Part shown: piece after piece, positions 2,047 to 37,448 of the stretch
How the letters are laid out: each line of letters starts with the position of its first letter
How positions within the stretch are numbered: position 1 is the stretch's first letter
Source: a virus
Length of the DNA: 38,416 bases
IMG/VR virus record: IMGVR_UViG_3300042861_000186
Span: 1 to 38,416 of that record
Strand: one strand, 5' to 3'
Program-made: the position numbers and the translations under genes
Notes under the pieces: model-generated
What the model saw: the letters and a program-made list of their open reading frames with translations, nothing else
Told to the model about the DNA's origin: nothing
Databases searched by the model: none

Positions 2047-2280
2047 ATGAAGGCCCCCCAGCAGTCGCTCAAAGACTGGACTGCGCAGAAATGGCGCACC
2101 AAGTCTGGAAAGCCGTCTTCCAAAACGGGTGAGCGGTATCTGCCTGAGGCGGCGATCAAGTCCCTGAGCCCTGCTGAGTACGCTGCGACCACCCGGGCCA
2201 AGCGAGCAGGCAAAAAGTCTGGAAAGCAGTTCGTGGCACAACCCAAGGGCATTGCTCAGAAGACGGCAAGGTTTAGGTAA
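2047..2280 (+). CDS. Small basic protein, DUF5872-like
   Basis: ATG 2047 is one base after the preceding stop. The 77-residue product has the pattern WTAQKWRTKSGKPSSKTGER, YLPEAAIKSLSPAEYAATTR and a C-terminal KKSGKQFVAQPKGIAQKTAR. This matches what I know as DUF5872, a small basic family of phages and some large viruses with no assigned function. The next gene begins inside its stop codon (TAATG at 2278-2282), which implies translational coupling. The protein is one of a series of tiny Lys-rich products in this block. Confidence 0.8.
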   Translation: MKAPQQSLKDWTAQKWRTKSGKPSSKTGERYLPEAAIKSLSPAEYAATTRAKRAGKKSGKQFVAQPKGIAQKTARFR

Positions 2281-3398
2281 TGTCTTACAACCCCTGGGGC
2301 GGCTCTATGCAAGGCGGACGCGCTGCATTTCAGCAGCCGCAGATGTCTGTGTCTAATCAAAACAGCGGTTTTGGACAGCAATCCCAAAATTTTGGTGGCT
2401 TTGGCGGTGGTTTTGGTGGAAGTTTTGGCGGCGGCTTTGGCGGCGGGTTCAACCCATTTTTTGGCGGTATCGGTGGACTAGGGTTTAATCCAACGCTTGG
2501 CCCTCAGTTTATGCAGCCGATGCAGTTTGGTGGCTTCGGGGGCTTTGGGGGTTTTGGTGGTTATCCGCAGCAGTTTGGCGGTTTCGGAGGCTTCGGAGGC
2601 TTTGGCGGCTTTGGCGGCTTTGGCGGCGGGTTTAGCCCCTTCCAAGGGGGCTTCGGCGGCGGTAATCCGTTTTTTGGCGGAATTGGCGGGTTAGGTGTCA
2701 ACTCTGCTTATAGAGAGCAGATGCCACGCGGGGCTCCCCCTCCGTCGCGGCTACGGCCAGAGGATACTAACTTAATTCGGCCAAAAAATTACGTGTCGGC
2801 AGAAGAGGCTTTTGGCTTTACTCAGCCGCTTGATATGAGGTACCGGGGCCCCGATCCGCGTATATCTCCGGAAATGCAGGGGCAATTTGAGCAGCAAAAA
2901 TCCCAAGATATGCGGTCCGTGCTGGACATGATACCCCCGGCGGGAAAAACGGGTCAAACTGGCTACGACCCCAGAGTTGAGCAATTCAGACAGTCCGCCG
3001 CTGGAAGAGAGTTTTTTTCCAACCTCCCGTCATTTGGGTCAATGGATATGCATAACTCGCCATATTTTGGCAGTGTTGGCAGCGGTTCAAGGGGCCTTGC
3101 CATGGATCAAGCCTTTGAAAGTTGGCTAGAATCTCAAGGTTTGCCTAAACAGTATCAAGCCCCAAGGGCGCTTACTGCCGAACAGCAAATTGATGCGCAA
3201 AAACGCGGCATAGCAAAGAGTGCCATTGCCGCAAGGCCAATTCAGCAAACAGGGTATGCCAGCATAAATGAGCGGCCCGCTGCGCCACAAATGTCAACGA
3301 CGCCGACATTGCTTGACGCGCAGGCCGCACTAAAATCAGGCAACCAAGCGTCTGCTGAAAACATGATGCGCGCTATTGTTGGATTGCCGCCGCTATGA
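2280..3398 (+). CDS. Gly/Phe-repeat protein of the virion block
   Basis: The 372-residue protein has a low-complexity N-terminal half of FGG/GFGG units (about residues 35-135). Two near-identical segments, NPFFGGIGGLGFN and NPFFGGIGGLGVN, lie within and at the end of it. The C-terminal half is ordinary and hydrophilic, with no recognised domain, ending AENMMRAIVGLPPL. The start is fused to the upstream stop (TAATG) and its own stop overlaps the next ATG (ATGA). The DNA is visibly richer in A and T at third positions than its neighbours, so it may have been acquired separately. FG-repeat proteins can be cohesive or condensate-forming; whether this one is a structural glue or a scaffold is speculation. 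Confidence 0.75.
   Translation: MSYNPWGGSMQGGRAAFQQPQMSVSNQNSGFGQQSQNFGGFGGGFGGSFGGGFGGGFNPFFGGIGGLGFNPTLGPQFMQPMQFGGFGGFGGFGGYPQQFGGFGGFGGFGGFGGFGGGFSPFQGGFGGGNPFFGGIGGLGVNSAYREQMPRGAPPPSRLRPEDTNLIRPKNYVSAEEAFGFTQPLDMRYRGPDPRISPEMQGQFEQQKSQDMRSVLDMIPPAGKTGQTGYDPRVEQFRQSAAGREFFSNLPSFGSMDMHNSPYFGSVGSGSRGLAMDQAFESWLESQGLPKQYQAPRALTAEQQIDAQKRGIAKSAIAARPIQQTGYASINERPAAPQMSTTPTLLDAQAALKSGNQASAENMMRAIVGLPPL
2380..2700 (+). repeat. FGG-coding tandem repeat region
   Basis: The DNA is made of degenerate 9-base units of the form ttt-ggc-ggc encoding Phe-Gly-Gly. It includes an uninterrupted run of F-G-G units at about 2575-2630. Copies differ at third positions, so the repetition appears kept at the protein level and is not only a recent slippage product. 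Confidence 0.85.
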
Positions 3399-4093
3399 CC
3401 ACCTCCGGGACAGCAACATTTGACCTCGATCTCAACGAGATCGTTGAAGAAGCCTTTGAGCGTTGCGGTTCAGAACTGCGCACGGGATACGATTTGCGTA
3501 CTGCAAGACGTAGTCTTAACCTCCTCTTTGCAGACTGGGCGAATCGGGGGATTAACCTCTGGACTATTGAGCAGGGTCAACAAGTCCTGTCTCCCGGCAC
3601 TGCGACGTACACGCTTCCTGCCGACACGGTAGACCTGATGGAGCACGTAATCCGTACGGGCGCGGGCAATGTTTCCACGCAGGTGGATCTGACAATTACC
3701 CGGATTTCAGTCTCCACGTACTCCTCGATCCCCAACAAGCTCCAACAAGCACGCCCGATCCAAGTCTGGATCAACCGCCAAGCGGCGGCTCCGCAGTTCA
3801 CGGTCTGGCCGGTGCCGGATAGCTCGCAGACGTACACGTTCGTGTACTGGCGATTGCGCAGGATTCAAGACGCTGGAGCAGGCGGTACGTACACGCAGGA
3901 CATCCCGTTCCGCTTCCTCAATGCGCTCGTCGCGGGGCTTGCCTATTACCTGTCGATGAAGATTCCAGGCGCTGAAGACAGGATGCAGGTGCTGAAGGCG
4001 CAGTATGACGAGGCGTGGGATTTGGCGAGTACCGAGGATAGAGACAAGTCCGCCGTACGTTTCGTCCCAAGGCAACAATTCGTTGGTGGCTAA
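3395..4093 (+). CDS. Tail tubular / connector-type protein
   Basis: The 232-residue product begins with a helical segment (LNEIVEEAFERCGSELRTGY) that includes an acidic pair and RTARRSLNLLFADWANRGI. Beta-rich sequence around TATYTLPADTVDLMEHVI follows, then a C-terminal helix, PFRFLNALVAGLAYYLSMKI, and a final charged tail. This order (helix bundle, beta domain, long helix near the end) is typical of podovirus head-tail connector or tail tubular A-like proteins. I assign the class by layout and gene position; specific residues are not diagnostic. Its ATG overlaps the preceding stop and the zinc-ribbon gene follows immediately. Confidence 0.6.
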   Translation: MTTSGTATFDLDLNEIVEEAFERCGSELRTGYDLRTARRSLNLLFADWANRGINLWTIEQGQQVLSPGTATYTLPADTVDLMEHVIRTGAGNVSTQVDLTITRISVSTYSSIPNKLQQARPIQVWINRQAAAPQFTVWPVPDSSQTYTFVYWRLRRIQDAGAGGTYTQDIPFRFLNALVAGLAYYLSMKIPGAEDRMQVLKAQYDEAWDLASTEDRDKSAVRFVPRQQFVGG

Positions 4094-12080: not shown

Positions 12081-13429
12081 GTATCTGGGTCAACATCGTC
12101 AAGCGCTTTCGCGCCCCTGCGCTTCCCAGGCCCCCGGAAACGTACACGCAGAACTATCTTGACAACCTAGTCAACGTCCTGCGGCTTTATTTCAACCAAC
12201 TGGACAGCTTGCTTGGAGAAATCGTGGCAGCACAACCTGTAAACGTCCAGTTCTACGGCACTGCGCTGGATGCGTTTGGCCGCGCCCGCTTCAGTTCTCC
12301 GTACACCCTGTTTGATTCTCAGAACCGCTACGAGAAGAACGATCTGTTTAGCGAGACAACCGCCACGGGCGGAACAGTCACGTACACAGCCAACGAGAGC
12401 ACGATCAACCTTAACGTGACCACCAGCAGCGGGTCCAGCGTGGTGCGTCAAACGCTTAGGTCTTTCCCGTACCAGCCGGGTAAGAGCCTCTTGGTGCTAA
12501 ACACCTTCGCCATGCCTACGGCGCAAGACGGACAGCGTATCCGGATTGGGTACTTCAACACCGAGAACGGTGTGTTCTTGGAGCGGGACGGCACGACGGT
12601 TTACATCGTCAGACGTACGTACGTGACGGGTGCTGCCGTGGATACCCGGGTGGCGCAGGCGGATTGGAACGGAGACAAGCTCGACGGCACCGGAGACTCC
12701 GGGTTTACCCTAGACCTGACGAAGACCCAGATTTTCTGGGAAGACTTTGAGTGGCTAGGTGTGGGCTCCGTCCGCGCCGGATTTGTCATCAACGGGCAAA
12801 CCATCATCTGCCATACGTTCCAGAATGCCAACAGCCTGACTGCCGTTTACATGACCACGGCGATCTTGCCGGTCCGGTACGAGATCACGAACACCGGGGC
12901 GACTACGGCTTCGGCAACGCTCAAACAAATCTGCTCCACGGTGATTTCTGAAGGTGGCTACGAGAAGAAAGTAGTCCCGACCGTGGTCAGGATGACGACC
13001 GCCAACACGAACATTGGCAGTGCCTTTGTTCCCCTGATGTCGATCCGGCTGGCTTCAGGCAGGACCGGCGCGGTCATTGTTCCAGACGGGTATTCGGTGC
13101 TTCCGACTTCAGCATCGTCCGTGACGTTTGAGGTTGTGGCAGTCAAGAACCCGACCCTGACAGGAGCCTCCTGGGGTGCTACGGATTCCAACAATGTTGA
13201 GCGAGACCTGTCGGCCACGAGCTACACGGGCGGCACGATTGTGTTTTCGCAGTACGTCCTGGCCTCAAACCTGTCCAGCGGCCTCATCGGAAACGGCCAA
13301 GATTACAACTGGGAACTGCAACTTGGCGCTACCATCGGGGGTGTGAGTGACATTTACACCATCGCCGTCCGGGCGCTCACCGGCACGCAGACTGCCATCG
13401 GCTCCATGTCGTTCTGGGATCTCACATGA
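12077..13429 (+). CDS. Virion structural protein, probably tail-associated
   Basis: The 450-residue protein starts MSIWVNIVKRFRAPALPRPP and has an N-terminal helical segment, NYLDNLVNVLRLYFNQLDSL, typical of attachment helices. A mostly beta remainder contains two or three sandwich-like parts (TATGGTVTYTANESTINLNV, RYEITNTGATTASATLKQIC). The final segment resembles a small beta domain ending IGSMSFWDLT. It lies between the nozzle gene and the ejection proteins and overlaps both by four bases. It may be an accessory fibre or tail sheath component. I do not recognise a named family. Confidence 0.6.
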   Translation: MSIWVNIVKRFRAPALPRPPETYTQNYLDNLVNVLRLYFNQLDSLLGEIVAAQPVNVQFYGTALDAFGRARFSSPYTLFDSQNRYEKNDLFSETTATGGTVTYTANESTINLNVTTSSGSSVVRQTLRSFPYQPGKSLLVLNTFAMPTAQDGQRIRIGYFNTENGVFLERDGTTVYIVRRTYVTGAAVDTRVAQADWNGDKLDGTGDSGFTLDLTKTQIFWEDFEWLGVGSVRAGFVINGQTIICHTFQNANSLTAVYMTTAILPVRYEITNTGATTASATLKQICSTVISEGGYEKKVVPTVVRMTTANTNIGSAFVPLMSIRLASGRTGAVIVPDGYSVLPTSASSVTFEVVAVKNPTLTGASWGATDSNNVERDLSATSYTGGTIVFSQYVLASNLSSGLIGNGQDYNWELQLGATIGGVSDIYTIAVRALTGTQTAIGSMSFWDLT

Positions 13430-19937: not shown

Positions 19938-22900
19938 ATGCCGATCTACCAAATCACGGCTCCGAACGGTAAAACTTATCGCATCGAAGGACCGCCCGGT
20001 GCCAGTGATGCGGATGTAGCTCGGGCTGTTCTTGCGCAGTTTCCCGAGGCGGGGCGGGCCCCACCAGAAGTTACCGCTCTCGGTCAGATCAAGGAGTTCG
20101 GTAAGGGGCTGGTCCCGGGTGCAGTGGGTCTGGTTGAGCAGGCTGCCATCGGTGCGTCTGCACTCCTGCCGGAAGAAGCTGAGAAGGCTGCACGGGAGAA
20201 GATCGCCAGCATTGCTGGAGCCGCCAAGGCACCGTTCGCCGCCGCTCCAGGGTATGAAGAGTCAGTTGGGCGTAAGCTCGGGCAGGCTGTCGGTTCGACG
20301 GCTCCGTTCTTGCTTGCGGGTCCGTTGGGGCTCGCGGGGCGGGCTGGTGCGGTTGGGCTCGGTGTGGGTGCTGGTGCCGGTGAAGCACGTACCCGAGCGG
20401 AGCAGGAAGGTGCCACTGCGGAGCAGCGGGCGACGGCGACGGCGTTGGGTATTGCCCCGGGCGCTTTGGAGGTCTTCGCTCCGTTCCGCATCCTGTCCCG
20501 CATTCCTGACGCTGCCACGGCTCAGGGTGTGCAGTTGGTCAAGCGGGCTGCGCTTGCGGGCGGTGAGGAAGCTGCCCAGGAAGCTGCGTCGAACTTCGCC
20601 CAGAACCTGATCGCCAAGGGCGTCTACAAACCTGAGCAGGAACTCATCGAAGGGTTGGGCGAGTCGGCGGCTTACGGCGGTGCAACCGGTGCCATCGTAC
20701 AAGGACTGCTTGACCTCGCTTTGGGGCGGCGTGCACGTGGTGCGCAGGCTACTCCCACGGAAGCTCCCATCGAGCGCGCAGAGCGCCTTGCTGCTGAGAA
20801 AGCAAAGGCTGAAGCCCCGCCTCCGACTGCACCTGTCGAGCCCGCACCGCCTGCTCCTGAACCTGCACCATCTGCTGCCGAGGCAGCGGCTGAAACACCT
20901 GCGCCCGCCACTGAGGAGCCTGCACCGCCTGCTGTCGAAGCAGCGACAGAAACCCCTGCACCTCCTCCGGTGGCCGAGACCCCTGCGCCGCCCGTCGAAG
21001 AGCCTACGGTCAGGAAACCCGGCGAACCGCCCGCGACTGGCTTACAGCCCACTGACATCGAAGCGTTTGGCATCAGCAAGAAGCAGCCGATCTACCGGCG
21101 CATGCTGGGCAAGGATATGGAAGACCCCGCGCAGCGGGATGCCATCCTCGCTGACATCGAGAACTACCTGACCAGAGGGAACGGTAGCGAGGAGTCCCGC
21201 GCCAAGCTGACAGAGTTCAAAGCCAAGTTCGCCCCCGCTGCACCCACCACGGCACCTGAGGTGCCTGTCACGGAGACACCAAGTGCTGATGCAACTCAAC
21301 CAGAAGCAGGTGGAGCAGGCGCTCCAGTGGCTGGCGAGCCCGGTGCAGGAGCCACCCCCGGAGGGGCTGGAGTCACTGAGCCAAGTGGAGTGGTTCCTCC
21401 TGTCGCGGATGCTCAACAGCCTGCTGGAGGAGAAGGACAGCAACCCGCTCCAGTAACGCCCCCTGCGCCCGCTCCCGCTCCTGCGCCCGCTCCCGCTCCC
21501 GCTCCTGCCCCTGCCCCGGCCCCCACGCCTGCTCAAGTCGAGCAGGAACTCACCGCACTGGTTGAGTCTGGGCGGATCACCGAGGAACAGGCAGCGACAT
21601 ACCGCGCAGAACTGCTGGGCGAAGCGGAAGAGGCTCCTCAGACCGCGATGGGGCAGGCGTTTCAGAAGCAGGTGGACAGCCTCAAGACGCAGATGGATGC
21701 CTTGCGTCAGAAGAGCGGGAAGAAGCCAGCACCGAAGTCCAAGAACCGGGCGAAGTTTGATGAGTTGCAGGCCAAGCTCGACGCTATCACCGTCACCGAG
21801 TCCGGAGACCTCGTTACCCGTATTGAAAAAGCTGGGCTAAAAGGTGTCGTCGGGATGGTCGATGGACGACCTGTTATCGATATCGCCGCTGTAAAGGACA
21901 ACCTGATCAAGGCACGCGCAGTGCCTGAAATGCTTGACGCTATACTGACGTACATCGGCGTTGACCGGGATGGTCACTATCTCGATACTGTGTACACCAG
22001 CGATGACGCGGCTGAAAAACACGGAATGTCGCGTAAGTCAGGCTCCAATGTTCGTCGGGCTGCGGAGGCGTTGGGGGTAGATACGGAAGTTCGTAATAGG
22101 TTCCTCGCCTCTCAGAGCGAACTGGGGGTCGGTGCCGCCAAAAACGCGTCTGAGGAAGGTACGGGCGCTACAGACTTGAAACCCCGGCGCGGTGCTCTTT
22201 ATGAGTCGAAGAAGAAGGGGATGCCAAAAGTTATAGCATTCCTACGTGGGGCGCTCACTCCCGATGGCAAACTAGATTTTAGTGAATCACGTGTTCCGCT
22301 GGAAAGCGCGAAAGCTAAAGGCGACAAAAAAGCTGTTGTGGGTCTGGCTGAGATGTTCGTGCGTGCCTCTCAGTTTAACCGCAATAACTACAAAAACGAC
22401 GAAGTAATCAACGCGCTACAAGCTGAGATAGATAAGCGGATCAAGTCAGACAGGAAAAAAGTTAACGACGCTATCACGCGGGCCTACGGGAAGTTTACGG
22501 AAACTGAAGACGTTTCCAGCAATCAAAAAGCGCTAGAGCTACAGATCGAGGAAGACCTGAAGTCTGGTAAGTTGACTCCTGTAGGTGACATCGCTGACCT
22601 GAAAGCGCCGCAGCTTGCGGCGCTTATTACCGAAGGTAAGGCCGAGATCGATGAAAAGCTCGGTACGATTAAGCCTGTCCAGAAGGAAGCTGCTGCACCG
22701 GACCAGACGCTGACCGAAGAGGAAGCAGCGGAAGCAGAACTCAGGGCGGAAGAGACCGAGGTCGAAGACAGGACTGCGCGGCTGAGCGATGAGGACGTTA
22801 ACTACCGCACTATTCCGCAAAGCCCCGTCGTCACCAATCGTGCGTCTCACGCTGAACTTGAAAAGGTTGTTTCCGACATTGGCAAGGCTCTGGGCGGTGA

Positions 22901-25900
22901 TGTATCAGTCACCATCCTCGATGATGTAACCGACGTTGACGCCAAGCAGCAGCCGGGTACTCGTGCCGGTGCGCTGATCAAAGGTCAGATTTACCTCTTC
23001 CGTAGCGGTATCGCCAAGGGCATCGAAGGGCAGAAGACTGTCTTCCACGAACTGTTCCATAAGGGCCTGAAGAACCTCCTGCCTGAGGCTGAGTACCGGG
23101 CGCTGATGTCGCGGTTCTACAACCAGAGCGCAGAGGTCCGCAGGATGGCGGATGCCTACCTCGCGTCCGATACGGGGAAGAAGGACACCGAGGGCATGAG
23201 TCCGCAGGAAGCCCGTGTCCTGGCAGTCGAAGAGTCGCTGGCAGAGGTTGCGGAGCAGACCAAGCTCAAGCCTAGTCTGGTGCGTCAGGTTGGCAATTTT
23301 CTCGCTCGTGTCGCTGACCGGTTTGGCATGCCGCAGCTTGCCCGTGCCATTCGCACGATGGGGCTGAACGAGCAGCAGAAGTTCATTCAGGATGCCTTGC
23401 AGGCAGGACTCGGACCAAGTGCCGGGGAAGGCGCGACGAGGTTCCGCACCGTCACCCCCGAGACCGAAGAAGCGGTGAAGGGCATCGATGTCATCGGGGA
23501 GCAGGACAAGCGTACTTTCGGTCAGCGTGTCGCCCGAGAACTCAAGGGCAACCCCGCTCTGCGCCTGCGCGAGAAGTTCACCGACTCGCTGGCACCGCTG
23601 GAAGACCTCTTCGTCAATGCATACGGCGGCGCAACCCGCACAGCCAAGGGCCGACTCAACCCGATGGTGCTGCTCTCCCGGGCGCTCGACGCGCTGCGCG
23701 TCAGCAAGGCGGCACAGGAGATTGGTGGTCTGGGCAGGGAAGACGGGCTCATCGTCGCCAAAGCTCTGCCGGTCAACTACAAGGACATCCTCAAGCGCAT
23801 CGCGGATGCCGCCAAAGAGCGTGGGCAGACCTACGAGGAGTTCCGCAAGACGGTGGATACTGTCCTGTACGCGCACCGTGAGTACAACCTGCGCGAGAAG
23901 AACAAGACCCTGCCCCAGGACGAGCAGATCGAACTACTTCTGAAAGACCACCAGATTGATCGACTGGAAGCTGCGTTCCAGCAGGACGACTTCATCAAAG
24001 GCATCAGCACAGACCTTGACACCATCCGCTTCAACCTACTTGACACGCTGGTGGACACCGGGCGAATCTCCGCTGAGCAAGCCAAAGACTACCGAGACGC
24101 CATCGGCTACATCCCCTTTGAGCGGATCGGTGAGTACGAGAACCAGTGGAACAACGCCACTCGTGGCGCGAACCGTGGGGTGGCTGCGCTGAAGAAGATG
24201 CGCAGTCTGGAGGGCAGCGACAGAAAGTCTACCTCCGTCGTGGAGAACTTCTCCGGACTCATGGACTGGGCCACGAAGGAGGCGATGAAGAACGAAGCCG
24301 CCCTTCGCGCCCTCAAGGACATGGAACTGCTGGGTGCAGCGGTCAAGCGCCCGAACAAACCAAAGACAGACGCGCCGGGGGATACTGTCGATGTCTTCGA
24401 CGGGGGCAAGAAGGTCTCCTATTACATCCCGGACCCTGCGCACCTCGTAGCGTTCAGCATCGCTGATCCGCAGCTTTCCAAAATCCTCAAGGCATTCCAA
24501 CGGGGCTCCCAGGTGCTCCGCGCTGGCGTCACTGCCATGCCGCCGTTCGCCATCAAGCAGGTGTTTGACGACGTTATCCGTGCGTACACTTACGCAGGTG
24601 TCAAGAACAACGGCGAGTTGGTCAAGAACGTACTCTTCAACTTCCCGAAAAACTGGGTCAACGAGGTGATGCGGCGCGAGTCGAAGGGCGTCCGCGAACT
24701 GAAGAACCTTGGCATCGTTGGCACGTTCGACTTCACTCAACAGACCAACCTGAAGGACATCCTTGAGGAGGCAGGGGCGAAGAAGGAAGGGATCGGCAGT
24801 GCCATCATCCGCGTGATGGAAGCCGGTGCCAAGGCATCGGACCTCGCCGTGCGCGAGGCCATCTACAAGCAGGTGCTCAAGGAAACCGGAGACAAGGCTC
24901 AGGCCGAGTCCGCTGCACGGGAAATCATCAACTTCAGCCGTCGCGGTTCATCGAGGACGATGGGCCAGATGATCAGCGTCATTCCCTTCTTCAACGCCTA
25001 TGCGCGAGGCATGGACAAGCTGGCAACAGCCGCTGCGGGCAAGGTCGTGGGCCAATCCACAGGCACCGCCCGGTCAATGTTCTACCAACGCATGGGTGTG
25101 CTGACCTCGATGGGTCTGCTGTATGCCCTGATGATGCAGGACGACGAGGAGTACAACAAACTGCCTGACCACGTGCGGGATACGAACTGGGTGCTGCCCT
25201 ACGGCAAGGAGCTTGGCTTCACGCCCGTCATTCCCATCCCGGCTGAACTCGCGTTCTTCTTCAAGGCGATCCCTGAGCGGATCGTGCGGTACTACAAGTA
25301 CCAGGGCACCGAGGAAGAGCAAGCAGCGATGTCTGTGCTCGGTGAGTTGGCTAAGCGAGGGATCGACGTTTTCTCGTCGCCCAACGTCACGCCTCAGGTG
25401 CTGCGCCCCTTCCTTGAGAACATCGTCAACTACTCGTTCTTCCTCGGTAGGCCGCTGGAGTCGCAGGCTCAGTTGCAGCTTCGCCCGTTTGAGCGGTACG
25501 GCACGGGCACCGCGGATGCCATGAAGGCCGTCGCCAAGGGCCTGGAGGACGTTGCCAACGCCACAGGTATCGAAGCCTTCGCCGTGTCCCCGATCAAGCT
25601 GGAGAACGCTGTGCGTGGCCTCATGGGTACCGCTGCGGGGCTCACCCTGTCGATGGCTGACATGATGGTCAACCCCAACCGGACGGATCGCCCCCTGCAC
25701 CAGCAGTTGACGCCTCAGTTGATCGGTGCCTCGGCTGTGATGAAGACCGCAGTGGGTACGCGGTACATGGACGAAATCTACGATCTGGAGAAGCGGGTCG
25801 AACAGGTCAACGGCACCTACAACCGGCTGCTGAAGACGCAGCCCGAGAAGGCCGAGGGCTACCTCAACGACAACATCGGCATCTACTCCATCCGGGGGCC

Positions 25901-26087
25901 GGTGCAAGGCGTCATGGACGCCATCCGCACGCTCAACGAAGCTGCCATGACCATCGACCGGGATACTTCCCTGAGCCCGGAGGAGCGCCGCAAGCTCATC
26001 GATGAACTGCGTGTCGAGCAGAACGAAATCGCCCGAGTAGTCTTCTCCTTGCGCAAGCAGGCCCGCGACATCCAAGCAGGGCTCTGA
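19938..26087 (+). CDS. Giant ejection / polyvalent-type protein with HELFH metallopeptidase motif
   Basis: The 2049-residue protein starts with a small domain (ITAPNGKTYRIEGPPGASDA) common at the front of internal virion proteins. A Gly/Ala-rich membrane-active-looking region follows (about 75-160), then long Pro/Ala/Glu linkers (about 275-540). A mixed module (about 620-930) leads to a metallopeptidase-like segment, TVFHELFHKGLKNLL, with H1037, E1038 and H1041; AVEESLAEVAE near residue 1099 offers a third ligand. The C-terminal 900 residues include FSRRGSSRTMGQMISVIPFF (about 1665), resembling large polyvalent-protein domain LPD38. It is last in the ejection block and probably enters the host with the DNA. 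Substrate and activity are unknown. Confidence 0.75.
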   Translation: MPIYQITAPNGKTYRIEGPPGASDADVARAVLAQFPEAGRAPPEVTALGQIKEFGKGLVPGAVGLVEQAAIGASALLPEEAEKAAREKIASIAGAAKAPFAAAPGYEESVGRKLGQAVGSTAPFLLAGPLGLAGRAGAVGLGVGAGAGEARTRAEQEGATAEQRATATALGIAPGALEVFAPFRILSRIPDAATAQGVQLVKRAALAGGEEAAQEAASNFAQNLIAKGVYKPEQELIEGLGESAAYGGATGAIVQGLLDLALGRRARGAQATPTEAPIERAERLAAEKAKAEAPPPTAPVEPAPPAPEPAPSAAEAAAETPAPATEEPAPPAVEAATETPAPPPVAETPAPPVEEPTVRKPGEPPATGLQPTDIEAFGISKKQPIYRRMLGKDMEDPAQRDAILADIENYLTRGNGSEESRAKLTEFKAKFAPAAPTTAPEVPVTETPSADATQPEAGGAGAPVAGEPGAGATPGGAGVTEPSGVVPPVADAQQPAGGEGQQPAPVTPPAPAPAPAPAPAPAPAPAPAPTPAQVEQELTALVESGRITEEQAATYRAELLGEAEEAPQTAMGQAFQKQVDSLKTQMDALRQKSGKKPAPKSKNRAKFDELQAKLDAITVTESGDLVTRIEKAGLKGVVGMVDGRPVIDIAAVKDNLIKARAVPEMLDAILTYIGVDRDGHYLDTVYTSDDAAEKHGMSRKSGSNVRRAAEALGVDTEVRNRFLASQSELGVGAAKNASEEGTGATDLKPRRGALYESKKKGMPKVIAFLRGALTPDGKLDFSESRVPLESAKAKGDKKAVVGLAEMFVRASQFNRNNYKNDEVINALQAEIDKRIKSDRKKVNDAITRAYGKFTETEDVSSNQKALELQIEEDLKSGKLTPVGDIADLKAPQLAALITEGKAEIDEKLGTIKPVQKEAAAPDQTLTEEEAAEAELRAEETEVEDRTARLSDEDVNYRTIPQSPVVTNRASHAELEKVVSDIGKALGGDVSVTILDDVTDVDAKQQPGTRAGALIKGQIYLFRSGIAKGIEGQKTVFHELFHKGLKNLLPEAEYRALMSRFYNQSAEVRRMADAYLASDTGKKDTEGMSPQEARVLAVEESLAEVAEQTKLKPSLVRQVGNFLARVADRFGMPQLARAIRTMGLNEQQKFIQDALQAGLGPSAGEGATRFRTVTPETEEAVKGIDVIGEQDKRTFGQRVARELKGNPALRLREKFTDSLAPLEDLFVNAYGGATRTAKGRLNPMVLLSRALDALRVSKAAQEIGGLGREDGLIVAKALPVNYKDILKRIADAAKERGQTYEEFRKTVDTVLYAHREYNLREKNKTLPQDEQIELLLKDHQIDRLEAAFQQDDFIKGISTDLDTIRFNLLDTLVDTGRISAEQAKDYRDAIGYIPFERIGEYENQWNNATRGANRGVAALKKMRSLEGSDRKSTSVVENFSGLMDWATKEAMKNEAALRALKDMELLGAAVKRPNKPKTDAPGDTVDVFDGGKKVSYYIPDPAHLVAFSIADPQLSKILKAFQRGSQVLRAGVTAMPPFAIKQVFDDVIRAYTYAGVKNNGELVKNVLFNFPKNWVNEVMRRESKGVRELKNLGIVGTFDFTQQTNLKDILEEAGAKKEGIGSAIIRVMEAGAKASDLAVREAIYKQVLKETGDKAQAESAAREIINFSRRGSSRTMGQMISVIPFFNAYARGMDKLATAAAGKVVGQSTGTARSMFYQRMGVLTSMGLLYALMMQDDEEYNKLPDHVRDTNWVLPYGKELGFTPVIPIPAELAFFFKAIPERIVRYYKYQGTEEEQAAMSVLGELAKRGIDVFSSPNVTPQVLRPFLENIVNYSFFLGRPLESQAQLQLRPFERYGTGTADAMKAVAKGLEDVANATGIEAFAVSPIKLENAVRGLMGTAAGLTLSMADMMVNPNRTDRPLHQQLTPQLIGASAVMKTAVGTRYMDEIYDLEKRVEQVNGTYNRLLKTQPEKAEGYLNDNIGIYSIRGPVQGVMDAIRTLNEAAMTIDRDTSLSPEERRKLIDELRVEQNEIARVVFSLRKQARDIQAGL

Positions 26088-34236: not shown

Positions 34237-34415
34237 TGTTTCTCCATCATCAGCTCCAGCGTGCGCTGGAGAATCCGTGCCTCGGCACCCAGACGCAGGG
34301 CGACTTCATACGCAGCGGGCAGGCTTCCCTCCAGCGCGTGGGCGTGCGCTTCTTTCGCAAGGCGCTCGATGTTCATCAAGGGCATCGCGTAGTCGATGAT
34401 CTCTTCAGTCTTCAC
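34233..34415 (-). CDS. Small helical protein between polA and nuclease
   Basis: The gene is a GTG-started 60-residue frame overlapping polA by 11 bases and the nuclease start by four (ATGA). The product, KTEEIIDYAMPLMNIERLAK and then HAHALEGSLPAAYEVALRLG, followed by AEARILQRTLELMM, is predicted to be three or four short helices. Very similar small proteins (ERLAKEAH... followed by AEARILQRTL) occur in other phages. Function is unknown; translation coupled to polymerase and nuclease suggests a replication accessory. A longer frame to 34604 is an antisense-like shadow with unnatural sequence. Confidence 0.7.
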   Translation of the reverse strand: MKTEEIIDYAMPLMNIERLAKEAHAHALEGSLPAAYEVALRLGAEARILQRTLELMMEKQ

Positions 34416-37155
34416 GCATCTCTCCGTAGTTGTAGCCCCACTTGGACTCACAGTTGATCGGCAGGCCATCGGCCCACGCAGGCACCCAGCGCATGCAGGA
34501 CTCGACGTAGGCCCGTGCCTCGTCGCGCTCGTCCTCCCGTGCCAGGGCGATGATACTATCATGGACGGTGAGCGCAACCCTGAGTTTCTTGGAGATACGG
34601 ACAAGCTGCGACATGACGATGATGCGGGCTAGTGCCTGCACGATGTTCTCTGTGAGCTTACCACCATAGATATCCACAAGCCCCGTGTCGTCCTTATACG
34701 CCCACTTCATCACACTACGATTGGGGTCTTGGTAGCGGTGCAGTTGCGGGTAGCTGATGTATAAGTCACTCGGCAGCTTGATCCCCTTGCGGCCTTCCAC
34801 CAGCACGACACCCTGTTTACCGAACCACCGGGTCTTGTTGGCGTGCATAGCCTCGATGCACTGCTCGCCCTCGTACCACAGATTCCTAATGCGTGGATAC
34901 GTCATGCGGTAAATGTCAACGATACGTTGGCACTCATCCAACGGCAAGTCCATCGGCGGGGACGCAGTCTTCAAAGTCGCCTGTAGTTTGTAGTGGCCGG
35001 TCTGGTACCCGCAGTTATGGACAATGATCGGTCCCTGGTTTGTCAAGACTGTGAACCTGCTCCTCGGTCCCGCTAAGGCGATGTCGTAGGTTTGCATTCT
35101 CCGCTTTAAGACGGGCGATTTCTTGTTGGAGCTTTCCGACTGTACGTCGGTTTCGTGCATTTTCTCCGCGCGGAACAAACCGCAAGTTATCAGGTTCGTA
35201 ACCTTTTTCGTTATCGATTCTATCCAATTCGTACTCAGGTACGTCCCACCCCTCCAAAGTGATGATGTGTTGTAGAAACGCTCGGCGGTCTTTGCGCCAA
35301 GGCTCGTAGACACGGATACCTCTACCGCCGTAGTTTTGGTATTGGTTACAGGTTGGAATCTCGCAGCGGTTGATGCAAGAAGATATTCTGTTGAGAAGGC
35401 GTTCCCTGTGTGCGTCATCGGGGACAAGATCAGCGTACCCCCAGTAGTGCTTACGAGTTTTAGCGGACTGCTTACGAGCGCAGTCGCCGCATCGTGCAGT
35501 CTTCTTGTTAAGGAAGTTGTTACGGACAACAAAGCCTTCCCAGCCGCACGCACACCGGACCCTCGGATTCCATCCAACGCTTTTTCCATCAGGTCCAAGC
35601 TGCTGCGCCCACTCGGTGACGGTAAGGTCGCCCTGCTTAAAGCCGACTGGAACAGGGAACGGTTTGAATGGACCTCGGACCACGCCCGCCATCCATGTTC
35701 CGTCAGGATTTCGTGATCCGCCGTGGCTGTCAGCCCTAAATCCGTTGGTGTCTCGGTCCAGCGGAATCCCTGATTCAATAGTCCACTGTGTGTTACCCAT
35801 GCTTCGCCATCCCAGAGTTCGTCAGTCAAGGAAACCTGTACGATACTCTTCCATCCAGAATTTGTCAAGACTTGGGTATCAGGTCCGAAGCACCCGAGGG
35901 TAACGGTCTTCCCTACAAATCTTTCCTGTTTATCTGTCTTAGTTACCGCCCGTCCATAAATCTTCGTCGCCATCTTGCAGTAGACATCGACCTTGTTGGC
36001 GAAGTCCTGCACCAGATCGTTCTGTCCAGCCAGCCACGCCAGCACCCGCGCCTCGATGTTGGACGAGTCACAGTCGATCAGTACGTACCCGGGCGGTGCC
36101 TCGATGCAGGCTTTGAGTTCCGTCCCGCCCCGGGCCGGGAGGTTCTGGAGGTTGATCCCGTCGCCCCCGCTGGAGCGCTTGGTCCGGGCGTAGCTGTACT
36201 TCAGTGGTACGGGCAGGGTGTTGCCCCGTGTGGTGATGCCGATGAAGGTCTGCGTGCGCGTCTCCTCCAGGGTGCTCTTGGTCCCCAGCCGTGCAGCCAC
36301 GGCAGCCTGCACCCGCTCGTCGGGGTGGTCCAGCAGCGCCTTGAGTTCCGGGTCGGTCTTGGCAAAGGCGAAGGCTGTCTTGCCCGTCGTCTTGCTGATC
36401 TTGGTCGGAGGCACCACGCCCAACTCACTCAGCACCTCTGCGAACTGCGGGTTGGAAGCCAGCCGCTCCTTGCTGAACTCCGTCCTGCTGAGTAGCTCCT
36501 CCTTGCGTCGGATCACACCCTCAAGATGCGCCTCCAGCTTGGGCCGGTTCAGTCGCAGCACCGGCTCAGAGAACATCCTGATATGCAGATCGATGAGCTT
36601 CAGTTCCTCCCGGGGGTAGTCCTCTCGCTTGTCGAACTCCTCGATGTTGTACCAACCCTCAGACATCAGACGCCACATGTCGTAGTCAAGCTGAACGTCG
36701 TTGAGGCAGTAGGTAGCGTACCGCTTGAACTCTTCAGGCTCAAAGTCCTGACGACGCATAGCTATGGCATTGACGACTTCGTCACCCTTCTCACCTACAC
36801 CGTACCGCTTGGCGAGCATAGCGAGGGAGTTGTTCCGCGCACCAAACATGGCACGGGCCATCGACAGGGTATCCAGCCACAAGCGTGGCCGCACGCCGAA
36901 GTGCCACGTGAATATCGCTGCGTCAAACAGGGTGTTGTGGCACAGGACTGCGTACTTGCCCCAGTCGATAGCGTCGAGCCGGTACTGAATCTCGGCGTGC
37001 GTACCTGTAACTACCTCCTTCGTCCCATCCGGCCAGCGCAGGCCGAGCATGATGACCTCAAACTTGGGATCGCGGATGTAGGCTTCAGTGGTAAGTTTGG
37101 TAAGGCTGTACTCCTTGGTGTAGTAGGTTTCAAAGTCCGCTGTGATTATTTCCAT
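34405..37155 (-). CDS. polA: DNA polymerase A (family A), interrupted by an intein
   Basis: The replicative polymerase is 916 residues with the intein and 623 without it. The 3'-5' exonuclease part has D7-F-E9 (Exo I), D78 in HNTLFDA (Exo II) and Y149-x3-D153 (Exo III). Polymerase motif A is DCDSSNIEAR (361-370), motif B is RFVGKTVTLG (412-421) plus CGYQTG after the intein, and motif C is VHDS (864-867). Leu420 occupies the position of E. coli Phe762. ATG 37155 is preferred because GAGAGA precedes it; upstream in-frame codons are in the VRR-NUC gene. The intein must be removed for activity, since it splits the O-helix. Neighbours are nucleases and a small helical protein. Confidence 0.95.
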   Translation of the reverse strand: MEIITADFETYYTKEYSLTKLTTEAYIRDPKFEVIMLGLRWPDGTKEVVTGTHAEIQYRLDAIDWGKYAVLCHNTLFDAAIFTWHFGVRPRLWLDTLSMARAMFGARNNSLAMLAKRYGVGEKGDEVVNAIAMRRQDFEPEEFKRYATYCLNDVQLDYDMWRLMSEGWYNIEEFDKREDYPREELKLIDLHIRMFSEPVLRLNRPKLEAHLEGVIRRKEELLSRTEFSKERLASNPQFAEVLSELGVVPPTKISKTTGKTAFAFAKTDPELKALLDHPDERVQAAVAARLGTKSTLEETRTQTFIGITTRGNTLPVPLKYSYARTKRSSGGDGINLQNLPARGGTELKACIEAPPGYVLIDCDSSNIEARVLAWLAGQNDLVQDFANKVDVYCKMATKIYGRAVTKTDKQERFVGKTVTLGCFGPDTQVLTNSGWKSIVQVSLTDELWDGEAWVTHSGLLNQGFRWTETPTDLGLTATADHEILTEHGWRAWSEVHSNRSLFQSALSRATLPSPSGRSSLDLMEKALDGIRGSGVRAAGKALLSVTTSLTRRLHDAATALVSSPLKLVSTTGGTLILSPMTHTGNAFSTEYLLASTAARFQPVTNTKTTAVEVSVSTSLGAKTAERFYNTSSLWRGGTYLSTNWIESITKKVTNLITCGLFRAEKMHETDVQSESSNKKSPVLKRRMQTYDIALAGPRSRFTVLTNQGPIIVHNCGYQTGHYKLQATLKTASPPMDLPLDECQRIVDIYRMTYPRIRNLWYEGEQCIEAMHANKTRWFGKQGVVLVEGRKGIKLPSDLYISYPQLHRYQDPNRSVMKWAYKDDTGLVDIYGGKLTENIVQALARIIVMSQLVRISKKLRVALTVHDSIIALAREDERDEARAYVESCMRWVPAWADGLPINCESKWGYNYGEMRED
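35014..35892 (-). mobile_element. PolA intein (293 residues) at polymerase motif B
   Basis: The intein starts at C422 (CFGPDTQVLTNSGWKSI, block A). Block B follows as LTATADHEILT (T57-x2-H60 of the intein). It ends MQTYDIALAGPRSRFTVLTN (block F) and GPIIVHN (block G), with penultimate His, final Asn and Cys as the first C-extein residue. All residues for protein splicing are present. Blocks lie only in the first about 75 and last about 28 residues. The intervening about 190 residues in this frame are open but biased to Ser/Thr/Ala, because a homing endonuclease gene occupies the DNA in the -1 frame. The insertion site is the highly conserved GKTVTLG/CGYQTG junction. Confidence 0.95.
35015..35800 (-). 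CDS. HNH homing endonuclease nested in the intein in the -1 frame
   Basis: The 261-codon frame lies on the same strand as polA but in the -1 frame and wholly inside the intein. It has a zinc ribbon (C83-x-C85, C104-x2-C107: RCACGWEGF, ARCGDCARK), the family motif NYGGRGIRVYEPW (156-168) and the HNH segment ELDRIDNEKGYEPDNLRFVP with GENARNRR (191-219). A coiled coil follows (KLQQEIARLKAENANLRHRL). It should cut an intein-less polA allele to drive homing. ATG 35800 has only a weak ribosome-binding site; M37 (35692), just past intein block B, is an alternative start. The stop TAA is formed by the intein's CAT-AAC codons. Residues before about 37 are probably by-products of intein coding. Confidence 0.85.
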   Translation of the reverse strand: MGNTQWTIESGIPLDRDTNGFRADSHGGSRNPDGTWMAGVVRGPFKPFPVPVGFKQGDLTVTEWAQQLGPDGKSVGWNPRVRCACGWEGFVVRNNFLNKKTARCGDCARKQSAKTRKHYWGYADLVPDDAHRERLLNRISSCINRCEIPTCNQYQNYGGRGIRVYEPWRKDRRAFLQHIITLEGWDVPEYELDRIDNEKGYEPDNLRFVPRGENARNRRTVGKLQQEIARLKAENANLRHRLSGTEEQVHSLDKPGTDHCP

Positions 37156-37448
37156 TGCGATCTCTCGTGGAACCACTGCTCAAGCAGTTCGATGGTATCT
37201 TCGCGCACCACCATAGCACTGCCGCCCGCCTTGTGGATGTTGACGATCTCTCGCTCTTGCAGGGCAGTGGGTTTATTGAACCCAGCCTTACATTCTACCG
37301 CAAGAAACATCCCGCGAAAGCAGATGATGATGTCGGGAATACCCGCACGACCGTAGCCGTTCTGGGCAGGGAAGAAGTGCCACGCCTTGTACTTCTCGAT
37401 GATGCTGACACAGGCTTGCTTGACTTTTTTCTCAGGAGTTGCTGCCAT
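37146..37448 (-). CDS. VRR-NUC domain nuclease
   Basis: The 100-residue protein is a stand-alone VRR-NUC module of the PD-(D/E)XK fold. FFPAQNGYGRAGIPDIIICF gives the G-x-PD motif with D39, LAVECKAG gives E52-x-K54 and TALQ gives Q64. The start is ATG 37448, which overlaps the DUF3310 gene by 17 bases; a TTG at 37460 is less likely. Such small phage VRR-NUCs are thought to cut branched DNA, as Holliday-junction resolvase-like enzymes. It overlaps polA by 10 bases, indicating coupled translation with the replication enzymes. Metal-binding residues are intact. Confidence 0.9.
   Translation of the reverse strand: MAATPEKKVKQACVSIIEKYKAWHFFPAQNGYGRAGIPDIIICFRGMFLAVECKAGFNKPTALQEREIVNIHKAGGSAMVVREDTIELLEQWFHERSQWK

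Follow-up and report, generated by a model that had tools for sequence, protein, structure and literature searches.

The open reading frame at 2280–3398 (+) begins with ATG and encodes a 372 amino acid protein whose dense Phe-Gly (FG) repeat is, in a few relatives, under purifying selection at the protein level. The gene is accessory and lies in a variable slot of the late operon, where a small Lys-rich gene precedes it and the gene for an SU10-type head-tail adaptor follows; its start overlaps the upstream stop codon (TAATG) and its stop overlaps the adaptor start (ATGA). Together with three related lineages its product forms a small, previously undescribed phage protein family. Our preferred reading, which is held tentatively, is that of an accessory late protein of a podovirus-type phage, in which a self-associating disordered FG 'sticker' domain is joined to a changeable tail and which may be a minor, dispensable component of the virion or of the assembly zone. 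The window is the complete IMG/VR record (38,416 bases) of an uncultured virus; as several related records reach about 60–65 kb, it probably represents a fragment. The features of the locus are collected in Table 1.

Table 1. Features of the FG-repeat gene and its slot (positions in the window)
Feature	Position	Strand	Basis
Accessory FG-repeat gene, 372 aa	2280..3398	+	ORF call, start/stop overlaps at both ends
Region rich in Phe/Gly and poor in charge, predicted to be disordered, aa 30-142	2367..2705	+	composition, AlphaFold2
NPFFGGIGGLG copy 1, aa 58-68	2451..2483	+	
NPFFGGIGGLG copy 2, aa 129-139	2664..2696	+	
C-terminal part, differing between lineages; similarity to L084 over ~43 residues (from nt ~2802)	2706..3395	+	
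C-terminal helical hairpin, aa 344-367; sole confidently modelled part, pLDDT about 85-90	3309..3380	+	AlphaFold2
Small Lys-rich gene, upstream neighbour	2047..2280	+	homologue directly abuts adaptor in 25 relatives (insert-free slot)
SU10-type head-tail adaptor gene, conserved right border of slot	3395..4093	+	matches SU10_adaptor

Residues ~30–142 contain 26 Phe and 52 Gly among 113 residues. FG dipeptides number 19 in this region (one per ~6 residues) and 22 across the whole protein. In 10,000 shuffles of the same 113 residues the mean FG count was 11.9 and the maximum 19, while for FGG, observed 18 times, the mean was 5.5 and the maximum 12. The first 142 residues include no Asp or Glu and a single Lys/Arg. 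A sequence-only reading had described a Phe-Gly-Gly region of about 100 residues with two copies of NPFFGGIGGLG; both features were recovered, the region being of ~113 residues, though its true start lies slightly 5' of the position 2380 given there. In AlphaFold2 models, which rest on four-sequence alignments and have a mean pLDDT of 49–54, the FG region showed no secondary structure (pLDDT about 33–50) and is predicted to be disordered, and the C-terminal part formed helices, the confident hairpin among them.

Of the 33 nucleotides that encode NPFFGGIGGLG, 8 differ between the two copies, all of the changes being synonymous. The 18 FGG units are specified by 10 encodings, with every mismatch among them at codon position 3, and the longest exact DNA repeat inside the Phe/Gly-rich region measures only 21 nt. 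Slippage alone is ruled out by the 10 encodings and the restriction of differences to third positions. Between two relatives, L033 and L084, the ungapped block of aa 1–62 gave a pS of 0.42 and a pN of 0.045 (pN/pS about 0.1); wider alignments of relatives gave a dN/dS of about 0.08–0.13 for the N-terminal part where computable, with dS near saturation and an alignment that favours amino-acid matches, so that the ungapped block provides the better figure. The earlier proposal that the amino acids are kept, and not only the DNA repeat, is thus upheld within the gene and between lineages.

Used as sole query, the open reading frame recovered only the near-identical records L001 and L002. One relative (L033, 328 aa) was found through an adaptor-based search, and L084, L086, L087 and L085 came from scanning 2.9 million viral contigs for motifs; DNA motif scans were chosen since BLAST masks low complexity and covers the FG part poorly. 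L084, L086 and L087 constitute one lineage with a protein of 545 aa, the L087 frame running differently at its end, and the L085 protein has 220 aa, so that family members span 220 to 545 aa. The search for homologues with conserved repeats which the sequence-only reading had proposed thus yielded three further lineages in which, as in the window, the FG gene lies directly 5' of the same SU10-type adaptor. L107 (235 aa) may be a fifth member but is not in the adaptor slot; its gene precedes a 949-aa ORF and an ORF which reads, by eye, as a terminase. Beyond local composition, L107 resembles the window protein (z 3.7) as closely as L084 does (z 3.9), although its motif match is partly by design, as it was found with the motif, and convergence is the alternative to membership. 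Exactly two copies of [FY]GGxG[GS]xG[FMV]N occur in the FG-rich protein of every member, L107 included; the remaining reading frames of the retrieved loci contain no copy. The first 30–36 residues of the window protein showed no similarity to those of L085 and L033 above shuffles. Five consecutive FGG units were found in viral contigs, besides the window's own phage, only in non-homologous proteins or frames. No significant match to the protein was obtained in Pfam, PHROGs, NCBIfam or PADLOC, in the PDB (best E 0.2, a DnaJ chain), or by BLAST, with its masking, in cultured phages, plasmids and bacterial genomes, and a search of the literature on phage FG repeats or condensates returned nothing on it.

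The conserved portion of these proteins is the repeat region; the C-terminal part diverges or recombines among relatives. L033 and L084 have different N-termini yet are identical in nucleotide sequence over 56 C-terminal codons, and the homology between the C-terminal parts of the window protein and L084 is confined to one block of ~43 residues. Judged from these sequences, the C-terminal parts are mosaic. Relatives lacking the repeat with the C-terminal half kept, named earlier as the refuting case, were not seen; the converse was found, relatives retaining the FG region and motif with a C-terminal part that is different, absent or swapped. The C-terminal part of the 545-aa L084 protein (L084:8955–10592, -) also carries a weak, below-cut-off match to a dockerin-like calcium loop (DLNKDGKITSADALAYQRQ).

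The occupancy of the slot was compared across 78 classifiable loci. The gene adjacent to the adaptor was one of two small Lys-rich genes in 26 and 25 of them, an FG gene in 4, a gene matching intron endonucleases below cut-off (a likely homing endonuclease) in 4 and another low-complexity protein in 3, the remainder being pairs or singletons; membrane proteins are among the unrelated genes in the same position. In the adaptor-based sample (71 classifiable of 80 loci) the FG gene was present in L033 only, and L004, whose adaptor is 97% identical, lacks it, with no match across its 65-kb record. Given this rarity, whatever the protein does is not needed by most relatives, and since a likely homing endonuclease and membrane proteins also fill the slot, position there implies no structural role. 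The earlier description as a phage structural gene therefore stands in so far as the gene lies inside the structural operon, and falls in that it is optional and not a core structural gene. Its GC3 is 0.51 against 0.62–0.89 in its neighbours, and its Phe codons (TTT:TTC) are 29:7 against 104:215 in the rest of the window; this usage is consistent with acquisition from elsewhere, although the window genes at 13426 and 18276 show a similar usage. No promoter or terminator of its own was detected beyond chance.

Among named phages, DSL-LC04 and pelagiphage HTVC023P have the best-matching adaptors. The order in DSL-LC04 (capsid, cement, small proteins, adaptor) places the slot in the head-neck region. 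The other low-complexity proteins found in the slot before the adaptor (L071, L078, L081) have Gly/Gln/Met-rich repeats but are unrelated in sequence, with MGAGG..KRP and GGKGGMPGA repeats and no FG repeats; the slot has thus taken disordered repeat proteins more than once. Poly-Gly proteins encoded downstream in relatives (e.g. L058, L021, L077) are likewise Gly-rich and from the same phages, but consist of Gly/Ser/Ala runs with few FG and belong to other genes and positions. At 508–2280 in the window, and in related loci, the stretch between the cement and adaptor genes encodes a series of small, uncharacterised Lys/Gly-rich proteins, several of which, in relatives too, end in a recurrent motif like GGGCEQRGKTKGRFV.

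A resemblance to cohesive low-complexity domains had been proposed, and the composition agrees with it: dense FG, almost no charge and predicted disorder, all shared with the Nup98-type FG domains of the nuclear pore. Uncharged FG domains of that type phase-separate, and shorter spacers give more cohesion (PMC9918544). The FG density exceeds the minimum of about one FG per 12 residues in Nup98-type domains, and the extreme depletion of charge, acidic above all, is present. The region is, however, of about 113 residues (142 with the N-terminus) against 500–700, holds ~19 FG motifs against ~50 (PMC9918544), and lacks GLFG; its FGG triplets are separated by very short spacers, it has a two-copy motif of its own, and it shows no homology. 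By the published criteria it is not of the nucleoporin type, being too short and without GLFG; a mechanistic resemblance, by analogy, is possible. Prion-like domains described in phages are also low-complexity and charge-poor and often belong to attachment or tail components, but they were called by Asn/Gln bias with PLAAC (PMC5694896), whereas the window protein is dominated by Phe and Gly.

Under the preferred reading the protein would consist of a charge-poor, disordered Phe/Gly 'sticker' domain, in which the conserved [FY]GGxGGLGFN motif occurs twice, and of a partly helical tail which may serve as a docking part that differs by lineage. As FG-dense, uncharged, disordered sequence is cohesive in Nup98, the Phe residues of the phage domain may likewise provide weak multivalent self-association. 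The protein would be made together with the head and neck proteins, and its slot suggests the minor virion or assembly role. In its favour are the close packing of the gene into the operon, with small late genes on one side and the adaptor on the other, and the location of this slot in the head-neck module of named relatives. Purifying selection on the FG part, the two motif copies in all lineages, the near absence of charge and the lack of modelled structure there also speak for the reading; the low number of FG motifs relative to Nup98 and the rarity of the gene count against it. The same optional slot, with its non-structural inserts, and the deviating codon usage would also suit an intracellular accessory protein (a moron) that targets the host at a late stage, binding or sequestering one of its factors, and stays outside the virion. 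We regard this as rather unlikely: the gene has no promoter or terminator of its own beyond chance, is embedded by overlap in the structural operon, where late production is expected, and its product matched no defence or host-takeover family.

Another reading takes the protein for an adhesin or other surface appendage, with its Gly-rich part packed into polyglycine-II-like helices or attaching in some other way to the host or to particles. Phage tail fibres are known to have Gly-rich tips, the spacing of the GGF triplets would put Phe on one face, and the C-terminal part varies among lineages, as host-facing parts do. Yet the gene lies outside the tail-fibre region, the low-confidence models show no packing, and it is the supposed binding part that is conserved while the C-terminus varies, which makes this explanation quite unlikely. 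Least probable is a functionless repeat ORF, recently arisen or decaying, expanded by slippage and kept by chance; the rarity of the gene, the range of lengths and the mosaic recombination are as expected of one, but the pN/pS in the ungapped block, the third-position-only variation and the invariable two-copy motif indicate constraint. In the boldest reading, which we consider unlikely, phages independently evolved an FG-type cohesive domain as an optional module open to exchange, and this domain gels or condenses at the site of assembly or on or near the neck of the particle. The family provides an example, outside eukaryotes, of a dense FG sequence almost free of charge that selection maintains. 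Should the domain prove cohesive, FG-driven association could be studied in a small natural system and phages would be shown to use it; if it is not, this limits how far composition alone predicts condensation.

Elsewhere in the window, the DNA polymerase A gene (34405–37176, -) has a probable in-frame intein at 35014–35892 (-; aa 429–721, CFGPDTQVL...IIVHN, then C). A 261-aa ORF at 35015–35800, wholly within the intein on the same strand in another frame, reads like an HNH homing endonuclease; family models confirmed neither the intein nor the endonuclease reading. The product of the gene at 19938–26087 (+), 2049 aa long, contains the Pfam domain LPD38 (large polyvalent protein associated).
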